Assembly: GCF_003269275.1 (NCBI RefSeq)
Contig: NZ_QLTS01000001.1
Coordinates: forward strand, 652,768-716,767
Direction of reading: 5' to 3'
DNA: 64,000 nucleotides
From: Phascolarctobacterium faecium DSM 14760
GTDB taxonomy: Bacteria > Bacillota > Negativicutes > Acidaminococcales > Acidaminococcaceae
Within the stretch, counting starts at the first letter, position 1, and every line of letters begins with the position of its first letter. Of the stretch, positions 51,863 through 62,526 are shown piece by piece. Both the position numbers and the translations under genes were made by a program. The notes beneath the pieces are model-generated. The model was not told the origin of the DNA. It saw nothing but the letters and a program-made list of their open reading frames with translations, and searched no databases.

Positions 51863-51891
51863 TTGACAAATATTCACTTATAGAATACGAT
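51863..51891 (+). promoter_or_regulatory. rsgA promoter
   Basis: TTGACA (51863-51868), 17 bases, TACGAT (51886-51891). It predicts a transcript start near 51898 and a leader of about 180 bases. The 51656-51862 stretch before it is AT-rich and shows nothing. Confidence 0.7.
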
Positions 51892-51897
51892 GAAACC

Positions 51898-52080
51898 ATA
51901 CTGAAAGTTCAGCCTGTAAAATACAGGTATGTCCTGCAGATAAATCTATTAAGAAAAGAGGAATTTTTTATGTTTACATATGGTACATCGGATATTGCGC
52001 AGACCGGGAGGTTTGCATAATCTAATATTTTGCCGAACCTCCCAAAAGGCTTTAATATAACCTTTAGGAGGATAAAAAAA
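51898..52080 (+). promoter_or_regulatory. rsgA leader with two mutually exclusive hairpins (putative translational switch)
   Basis: A first hairpin is CCTGTA-aaa-TACAGG near 51913. Then GGGAGGTT (52006-52013) can pair with AACCTCCC (52036-52043). Alternatively CCTCC (52038-52042) plus AAAGG (52045-52049) pair with CCTTT (52061-52065) plus GGAGG (52067-52071), which hides the rsgA ribosome site. The first arm overlaps the end of a small ORF. Confidence 0.55.
51970..52020 (+). CDS. Putative 16-residue leader peptide upstream of rsgA
   Basis: ATG-to-TAA frame encoding MFTYGTSDIAQTGRFA. AGAGGA (51957-51962) is seven bases before the ATG, a good ribosome binding site, which is rare by chance in this AT-rich leader. 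Its last codons overlap the anti-sequestering arm GGGAGGTT, so ribosomes on it would influence the rsgA hairpins. No family is known to me. Confidence 0.45.
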   Translation: MFTYGTSDIAQTGRFA

Positions 52081-53160
52081 ATGTCTAAAATAAATTTACA
52101 AACATTAGGATTTTCCGCAAAATTCGCTGAAGAAGCAGCCAGTTTTGGCTGTTTCCCTGTCGGACGCGTTTCAGCCCAGTATAAGGATCTTTACCGTGTC
52201 ATAACCGAAACCGGGGAAGTACTGGCAGAGGTTTCAGGCAAGCTGCGCTTTAATGCCGCCGCACTTTCAGATTTCCCTGCCGTCGGTGATTTTGTTCTGC
52301 TTGACCGCACAGATACTGTTGAAGGAAGAGCGATCATCCATCATGTACTGCGCCGCAAAAGCGCGTTTATCCGCAAAGCTGCCGGTACAGGTAACTCTGA
52401 GCAGGTAGTCGCCAGCAATATCGATACGGTATTCATCTGTATGTCATTGAACAGCGATTTTAATCTGCGGCGTCTGGAACGGTATTTAGCCATTGCCTGG
52501 AGCAGCGGCGCACTGCCGATAGTTACTTTAACCAAAGCTGATTTATGTGATGACGTAGCTGCTAAAACAGCAGCGGCTGAGTCCGTTGCCATCGGCGCTG
52601 AAATACTTGTCACTTCTTCACTGGCCGATGCCGGTCACGAGCAAATACTTCCCTACTTGAAGTGCGGCAGTACGGCTGCCTTCATCGGTTCCTCAGGCGT
52701 AGGTAAATCAACTCTTATCAACCGTTTGGCTGGCACCGAATTTGCTACCAATGGTTTGCGAAACGATGATAAGGGTCGACATACAACAACCAGACGCGAA
52801 CTCATCACCCTTACAAACGAGGCTTTAGTCATCGATACTCCGGGAATGCGGGAACTGGGTTTAGAAACGGCTGATTTATCCAAAAGCTTTGCTGATATCG
52901 ACGAACTGTCCCAGCAATGCCGTTTTCGTGATTGTACCCATACCCACGAAACAGGCTGTGCCGTTCAGCAAGCTATCACAGACGGAATACTTGCCGCGGA
53001 CAGACTGGCCAGCTATCAAAAGCTGCAGAAGGAAGTACGCTATGAAGGCCTTGATTCCAAACAGATCGAACTGGAAAAATTCAGTACCATGTTCAAAGAT
53101 ATTGGCGGTATGAAAAAAGCTCGCAAATTTCTGCATGACAACGACAAGCGCAGACGCTGA
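52081..53160 (+). CDS. rsgA: Ribosome small subunit-dependent GTPase RsgA
   Basis: 359 residues. Circularly permuted GTPase: TKAD (G4) precedes GSSGVGKST (G1) and DTPG (G3). An N-terminal OB-fold (AVGDFVLLDR) and a C-terminal zinc motif (CRFRDCTHTHETGC) bind the ribosome. It assists 30S maturation. The ATG at 52081 has GGAGG nine bases before it. Longer reading frames to 52030 are not needed. Confidence 0.93.
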   Translation: MSKINLQTLGFSAKFAEEAASFGCFPVGRVSAQYKDLYRVITETGEVLAEVSGKLRFNAAALSDFPAVGDFVLLDRTDTVEGRAIIHHVLRRKSAFIRKAAGTGNSEQVVASNIDTVFICMSLNSDFNLRRLERYLAIAWSSGALPIVTLTKADLCDDVAAKTAAAESVAIGAEILVTSSLADAGHEQILPYLKCGSTAAFIGSSGVGKSTLINRLAGTEFATNGLRNDDKGRHTTTRRELITLTNEALVIDTPGMRELGLETADLSKSFADIDELSQQCRFRDCTHTHETGCAVQQAITDGILAADRLASYQKLQKEVRYEGLDSKQIELEKFSTMFKDIGGMKKARKFLHDNDKRRR

Positions 53161-59437: not shown

Positions 59438-59724
59438 AAAAAAACGCCCCCACCTGCTTAGCAGATAGGGGCGACTTTCACCGCGGTACCACCCTAATTT
59501 GACCTCATTGTCTCAGAGCCTTCGCTCTAAACGCCTAACGCTGCGCCGGCGTCGTTTCCTACTGCTGGTTCAGAAACGCGGCTCCCGGGTGAGTCTTATC
59601 GCTGTACCGCTACGGCTTTCACCAACCGCCGTCTCTCTAAAATCGGTAACATCAGCAACTTTGTTCCCATTCAATGCCTTTATTATCAAGTTGTACAAAC
59701 AAAAGCTAATTTGTTCGTGCTATG
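59438..59724 (-). promoter_or_regulatory. T-box riboswitch, ilv-leu operon (Leu type)
   Basis: Minus strand carries the T-box core AGGGTGGTACCGCG (59482-59495), the terminator GCCCCTATCTGC with GCAGGTGGGGGC (59446-59472) and seven T. In stem I the triplet CTC (59591-59593), followed by ACC, sits where the specifier is expected, giving Leu. AGAGAG and GGTGAAAGCC are present upstream. The operon should open when tRNA-Leu is uncharged. Confidence 0.9.
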
Positions 59725-62271: not shown

Positions 62272-62526
62272 TAAAAAACTCCCGGCTTGATCAATTACAA
62301 TCAAGGACGAGAGTTCTACTCACGTGGTGCCACCTTTTTTCGCCGCACAGCGCGGCCTCATTGCCGATATATCGGTCGGACCCGGACAGGTTGCTACCCC
62401 TGTCTCCTCCGGAGCGGAATTCAGTTTTTAGACGTTACGGCTTGCACTGACCGCCGCTTCTCTTTGCCGCCTGCCAACTTACTTTTCTCCATCGTCGGAT
62501 AAATGAACTATGTAATTTTCAAGCTT
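62272..62526 (-). promoter_or_regulatory. T-box riboswitch, serA (Ser type)
   Basis: Minus strand has the T-box core AGGTGGCACCACGTG (62321-62335) and a terminator, ACTCTCGTCCTTGAT with ATCAAGCCGGGAGT, then T. GAATTCCGCTCC in the specifier loop gives the codon TCC (62416-62418), Ser, which fits serA. It should be read through when tRNA-Ser is uncharged. Confidence 0.9.

Follow-up and report, generated by a model that had tools for sequence, protein, structure and literature searches.

The region before a second rsgA gene in the window, the whole 64,000-nucleotide stretch of Phascolarctobacterium faecium DSM 14760 that was analysed, probably acts as a translational attenuator of the ermC/catA86 kind, read by a ribosome. 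The leader (51898-52080, + strand) is conserved in other bacteria, its rival helices covary, its geometry is fixed and it is associated with a small set of genes, all of which support this assignment. The same leader stands before three unrelated gene families in at least three phyla, probably as the sign of a shared translation-stress response.

Organisation of the leader and its gene

The downstream gene, rsgA2 (52081..53160, + strand), encodes a protein of 359 amino acids with the RsgA GTPase domain (PF03193, E 4.5e-49; TIGR00157, above cut-off). The other rsgA in the same genome is located at G000:C1:172349-173200 and is 30% identical to rsgA2. Among relatives, rsgA of that other type was nearly universal or commonly kept while rsgA2 was sporadic and often absent. 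The gene at 52081-53160 is a divergent second paralog and not the canonical single-copy housekeeping rsgA.

A short upstream ORF (uORF) with its own Shine-Dalgarno (SD) sequence lies directly upstream of rsgA2. The SD sequence AGAGGA (51957..51962, + strand), which has strong counterparts in relatives, precedes a leader ORF of 16 codons (51970..52020, + strand; ATG at 51970, stop codon at 52018-52020) encoding MFTYGTSDIAQTGRFA. Both had been reported at these places in the initial annotation. Codons 8-10 (51991..51999, + strand) encode Asp-Ile-Ala, the counterpart of a conserved [E/D]-[I/S]-[V/A] motif. A consensus promoter had also been reported for the leader. The sequence TTGACA-17-TACGAT (51863..51891, + strand) does match at 10/12 positions, but promoter-type sites were no more frequent in the window than in shuffled sequence, and it is only plausible as the leader promoter.

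The remaining elements are arms that can pair in more than one way, all on the + strand. Arm 0, GCAGACC (51999..52005), was predicted by folding to pair with GGTTTGC (52010-52016) and competes with arm 1, and this pairing family covaries. Arm 1, GGGAGGTT (52006..52013), is an SD mimic near the end of the leader ORF. Arm 2, AACCTCCC (52036..52043), has either arm 1 or the rsgA2 SD as its partner and is extended by AAAGG (52045..52049); the extension also covaries. Arm 3, CCTTTAGGAGG (52061..52071), contains the SD of rsgA2. Arms 1 and 2 are complementary over 8 bp. In the rival pairing CCTCC (52038-52042) pairs with GGAGG (52067-52071) and AAAGG with CCTTT (52061-52065). The elements of these two competing hairpins, proposed in the initial annotation, were all found in the sequence, and both covariation and folding indicated helices that exclude each other, with the rsgA2 SD hidden in one of them. 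The two forms were near in predicted energy (51970-52078: forced 1:2, -23.8 kcal/mol; forced 2:SD, -26.5 kcal/mol), and the folding z-score was -2.6 for 52000-52086. The annotation had named these elements correctly but had overlooked a third helix, which spans codons 10-12, as well as the spacing of about 37 nt described below.

No terminator-like site was found between 51970 and 52081. Because no terminator lies between the leader ORF and the gene, the sequence argues that transcription attenuation of the trp or hflXr kind is not the mode. The leader had no relevant match in Rfam 15, riboswitches and T-box included, at the gathering or a relaxed threshold. Elsewhere in the window two T-box leaders scored above the gathering threshold (59464-59683 and 62300-62504, both - strand), near genes of branched-chain amino-acid synthesis.

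Conservation and distribution

Upstream regions of relatives were taken from rsgA2 homologs with approximately 50-65% protein identity. The leader was present before about half of the rsgA2 homologs examined (Clostridia, Negativicutes, Synergistota). The shared order was a strong SD, ATGTTTAAC..., GA(N)ATTGTA, GGGAGG, stop codon, CCTCCC, AAAAGTT...AACTTTT-GGAGG and the gene. A covariance model (CM) was built from 22 of these leaders, and the protein downstream played no part in it. With this model the leader was found in 45 of 300 Negativicutes genomes (E ≤0.01, best 1e-18) and in 27 of 398 genomes sampled across the phylum; the E-values are rough. A broader model from 93 leaders confirmed the earlier matches and added few. 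The window leader, the sole copy in its genome, had an E-value of about 1e-13 to 6.5e-13, with values down to 1e-19 in relatives, again as rough figures. In total the leader was conserved at about 100 loci in Negativicutes, Clostridia, Synergistota, Lactobacillaceae and Coriobacteriia, including matches in Lapidilactobacillus and in the actinobacterium Enteroscipio. A weak match (E 2e-4) was located on a Peptoclostridium megaplasmid. The ORF and the paired arms, for which the initial annotation had proposed a check in relatives, were thus kept.

Two weak CM matches without the arms (L152, L180) were discarded as false and excluded from the tally. A pattern scan of viral contigs returned four chance matches without an SD or leader ORF, and a phage collection gave short weak matches only.

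Some rsgA2 genes had other arrangements upstream. Two Acetobacterium wieringae loci (L037 and L046, 1713-1889) carried about 100-190 nt inserted between leader and gene, which probably uncouples the switch from rsgA2. In Clostridioides difficile (L074, L075, ~1400-1500) the leader upstream of the RNHCP-rsgA2 operon was of another type: CCACAGGAG...CCTGTGG and then a terminator-like T run, with nested ATGTAG / GTGTAG that possibly form a start-stop ORF. C. difficile rsgA2 may be under a different kind of attenuation. Three Lactiplantibacillus loci (L066, L079, L080) had an SD and a very short ORF (MSARN or MSVSR, then stop) ≤250 nt upstream of rsgA2, and a terminator-like hairpin after this ORF just before the gene.

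Geometry of the leader ORF

Nearly all leaders kept the uORF and its fixed geometry. Of 100 leaders, 65 had a distance of 38 nt between the leader ATG and GGAGG and 89 a distance of 35-39 nt, which places GGGAGG at a fixed spacing of ~37 nt. In rsgA2 leaders the stop codon follows arm 1; in the leaders of a GNAT acetyltransferase family and most of those of RNHCP genes it comes immediately before arm 1. The spacing holds although the stop shifts, so what is conserved is where an early elongating ribosome stands with respect to arm 1. Re-initiation coupling between the leader ORF and rsgA was considered and rejected, because 60 nt separate the uORF stop from rsgA and because this stop precedes arm 1 in GNAT and RNHCP leaders.

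Among 69 in-frame leaders codon 8 was E/D in 54, codon 9 was I in 50 and codon 10 was V/A in 67. Ser, Leu and Thr were the alternatives at codon 9, and codon 10 can be Ala. All third bases were used at codons 8 and 10, a freedom that hints at selection on the peptide. The motif could also be driven by the RNA rather than by a stalling peptide, and the two constraints are inseparable at codons 8-10 because the same bases make arm 0. In the window a one-base shift moves GGGAGG to another frame, altering the peptide and leaving the RNA arm intact. The preservation of GGGAGG out of frame indicates that arm 1 is kept as RNA.

Covariation of the competing helices

Covariation was assessed in 85 non-redundant leaders by comparing the pairing of each leader's own arms with that of arms from other leaders, using the flanks outside the invariant GGAGG/CCTCC cores. 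For P1 (arm 1:arm 2) the mean energy was -4.14 kcal/mol with own arms and -2.50 kcal/mol with others (z -8.7 against permuted partners, a statistic inflated by kinship among the sequences). P1 also exceeded partners drawn from the five nearest relatives (p 2e-4), the nearest-neighbour comparison being the conservative one. P2, the extension between arm 2 and the SD flank, gave a similarly inflated z of -8.9 with permuted partners, p 0.002 against the five nearest relatives and p 0.11 in the strictest test, against the single nearest relative. P0, between the codons upstream of arm 1 and the stretch after arm 1, gave z -7.0 under permutation, with the same inflation, and p 0.015; its strictest test gave p 0.18. 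Three control pairings had z-scores from -0.4 to 1.1.

Column counts agreed with these results. Paired cells made up 80.6% for P1 (72% when shuffled, ≤60% in slid register), 79% for P2 (≤60% in slid register) and 77% for P0 (≤58% in slid register). All slid-register controls were lower in both pairing and score. In P0, for which the window has GCAGACC:GGTTTGC, full compensatory changes were seen by eye in GTTCGTC:GACGAAC (L138) and GTCCGTC:GACGGAC (L137), and likewise in ATTGTATTA:TAATACAAT (L031) and AGTGTCGT:ACGATACT (L034). The register of P0 differed among lineages. A pseudoknot with 0:0' and 1:2 formed simultaneously was judged unlikely where both stems are long and the connecting loops are of 3-4 nt (L031, L034). 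Pairing between the codons upstream of arm 1 and the loop between arm 2 and the SD was also above permutation (z -5.4), a possible fourth helix outside the model.

Predicted effect of ribosome position

Each leader was folded with a ribosome placed codon by codon, its footprint spanning -14 to +14 relative to the P site. With the leading edge of the ribosome just before GGGAGG, P(1:2) was 0.91 and P(2:SD) 0.06; with the edge 3-6 nt further P(2:SD) was 0.80-0.86 and the SD was closed. With the ribosome on the 3' part of the ORF, P(2:SD) over 85 leaders was 0.78-0.87. These values address feasibility and geometry rather than regulation, as blocking arm 1 favours 2:SD partly by construction. By this computation 70 of 85 leaders switch with ribosome position. 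In the window leader P(1:2) was 0.99-1.0 with codons 6-8 in the P site, and P(2:SD) was 0.98 from codon 10 on. Other footprints moved the switch point by one codon at most. The earlier proposals that a ribosome which occupies the end of the ORF hides the rsgA2 start, and that busy leader translation lowers RsgA, are therefore borne out in predicted folding, where full translation leads to the closed form.

Proposed mechanism and alternatives

In the proposed attenuator a ribosome would translate the 16-codon leader ORF. If it paused with the P site at about codon 6-8, it would melt the arm 0 hairpin and leave arm 1 free; arm 1 would then take arm 2 and the rsgA2 SD would be released (ON). A ribosome past codon 10, as far as the stop codon, would cover arm 1, so that arm 2 would pair with the SD region and rsgA2 would not be translated (OFF). 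Given the covarying P0 and the fixed ATG-to-GGGAGG spacing, the ON state is clearest for a ribosome that pauses at about codons 6-8. The pause would probably come from translation stress, such as a ribosome-targeting antibiotic. From full translation being off and an early pause on in folding, we infer stalled or slow ribosomes as the natural signal, following the logic of the ermC, cat and toiL leaders.

The initial annotation had read the switch as feedback on a ribosome assembly GTPase, with scarce active ribosomes raising RsgA. In this alternative, translation of the leader itself represses rsgA2, a leader without initiating ribosomes is the natural ON signal and the outcome is homeostasis of ribosome assembly. 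Ribosome-free rsgA2 leaders did lean open when folded (mean P(1:2) 0.71), and leaders translated to the end were predicted to close. However, the same element was predicted to be closed when ribosome-free before RNHCP genes (P(2:SD) 0.72) and divided before GNAT genes (0.56 open, 0.42 closed). In the window leader the ribosome-free P(1:2) was 0.65 or 0.94 depending on the 5' context, but the SD was then largely held by an upstream TGTCCT and was mostly paired, with only 0.21-0.28 open. Feedback of this kind also gives no role to the conserved P0 or the fixed spacing from ATG to arm 1. Its target is a 30% identical paralog and not the canonical rsgA, so ribosome-assembly feedback is not the obvious purpose, and the presence of the leader before GNAT and RNHCP genes means that it is not an rsgA-specific feedback. 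We consider such homeostatic feedback unlikely.

It is much less probable that the [E/D]-I-V/A codons sense tRNA charging (e.g., of Ile or Val) in the manner of amino-acid operon leaders. The conserved Ile codon 9 and Val/Ala codon 10 would be at or beside the A site in the open switch, but there are no codon runs, Ser, Leu or Thr is tolerated at codon 9 and Ala at codon 10, and none of the downstream genes is biosynthetic. Least probable of all is a metabolite riboswitch or protein-binding leader with an incidental short ORF: a structured leader is conserved before several gene families, but the uORF, rival arms and SDs explain the conserved sequence, there is no Rfam match, and the uORF and its geometry are kept in nearly all leaders.

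Genes associated with the leader

The CM matches yielded 95 leaders, of which 54 preceded rsgA2, 30 one GNAT family (GNATa, PF00583), seven the RNHCP zinc-ribbon (PF12647) and one a YjhQ-like GNAT, with three truncated; the tally is skewed to rsgA2, whose leaders were the source of the first model. The YjhQ-like GNAT, downstream of a leader at 1472-1581 (L144), has 32% identity to Escherichia coli YjhQ over 136 amino acids. The three truncated or duplicated leaders (L150, L179, L184) lie next to remnants of rsgA2 or to no recognisable gene. The order leader, RNHCP and then rsgA2 occurs in Anaerotignum, Fusibacter and Enteroscipio. One cassette would control rsgA2, the GNAT family and RNHCP genes, probably as a single translation-stress response. 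The element ties together a duplicated GTPase of 30S assembly, a GNAT family and an uncharacterised zinc-ribbon family, giving them a testable common role in dealing with blocked ribosomes.

Comparison with known attenuators

The statement that no such switch had been described for rsgA held for Rfam 15 and the open literature searched. Nothing relevant was found there on an rsgA leader, the RNHCP family or the RsgA2 paralog.

The ermC/ermCL and catA86 leaders are translational attenuators with a short uORF and a four-segment RNA that forms rival hairpins. Such attenuators usually serve a single resistance gene. Arms 0, 1, 2 and the SD of the window leader correspond one to one to segments 1-4. 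In both, by prediction for the window leader, the SD is hidden by default or after full leader translation and is freed by a ribosome held in the uORF (ermC is summarised in PMC10219788 and PMC12121999). By anatomy the present leader would work like an ermC/cat attenuator, with induction, which defines the kind, being predicted. It differs in its leader peptide, with [E/D]-I-V at codons 8-10. Its targets are also different, namely an RsgA paralog, an RNHCP protein and GNAT enzymes. It is unusual that several phyla reuse one homologous cassette ahead of unrelated genes; the cassette also offers a handy reporter for an inducer search.

The toiL uORF of the E. coli topAI-yjhQ-yjhP operon is a proven attenuator induced by several antibiotic classes, and loss of the leader SD abolished induction (PMC12121999). 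There too a uORF governs exposure of the downstream ribosome-binding site, and the operon encodes the GNAT-type YjhQ, as the L144 leader precedes a YjhQ-like GNAT. toiL differs in pairing directly with the topAI site along its length and in having Rho-dependent termination downstream.

The Listeria hflXr attenuator rli80 is proven and is induced by lincomycin and erythromycin (PMC6310831). As with rsgA2, a duplicated ribosome-associated GTPase, distinct from the other paralog, is under a leader-ORF attenuator. In contrast to the predicted translational control without a terminator here, rli80 acts by transcription attenuation with a terminator and a 14-aa RLR leader peptide. We suggest tentatively, at a little under even chances, that the transferable cassette defines an unrecognised translation-stress regulon (rsgA2, RNHCP, GNAT) in three or more phyla, marked by a new leader-peptide or codon signal, [E/D]-I-V, in which the RsgA paralog, induced by antibiotics or stress, would rescue or protect ribosomes in the manner of HflXr.
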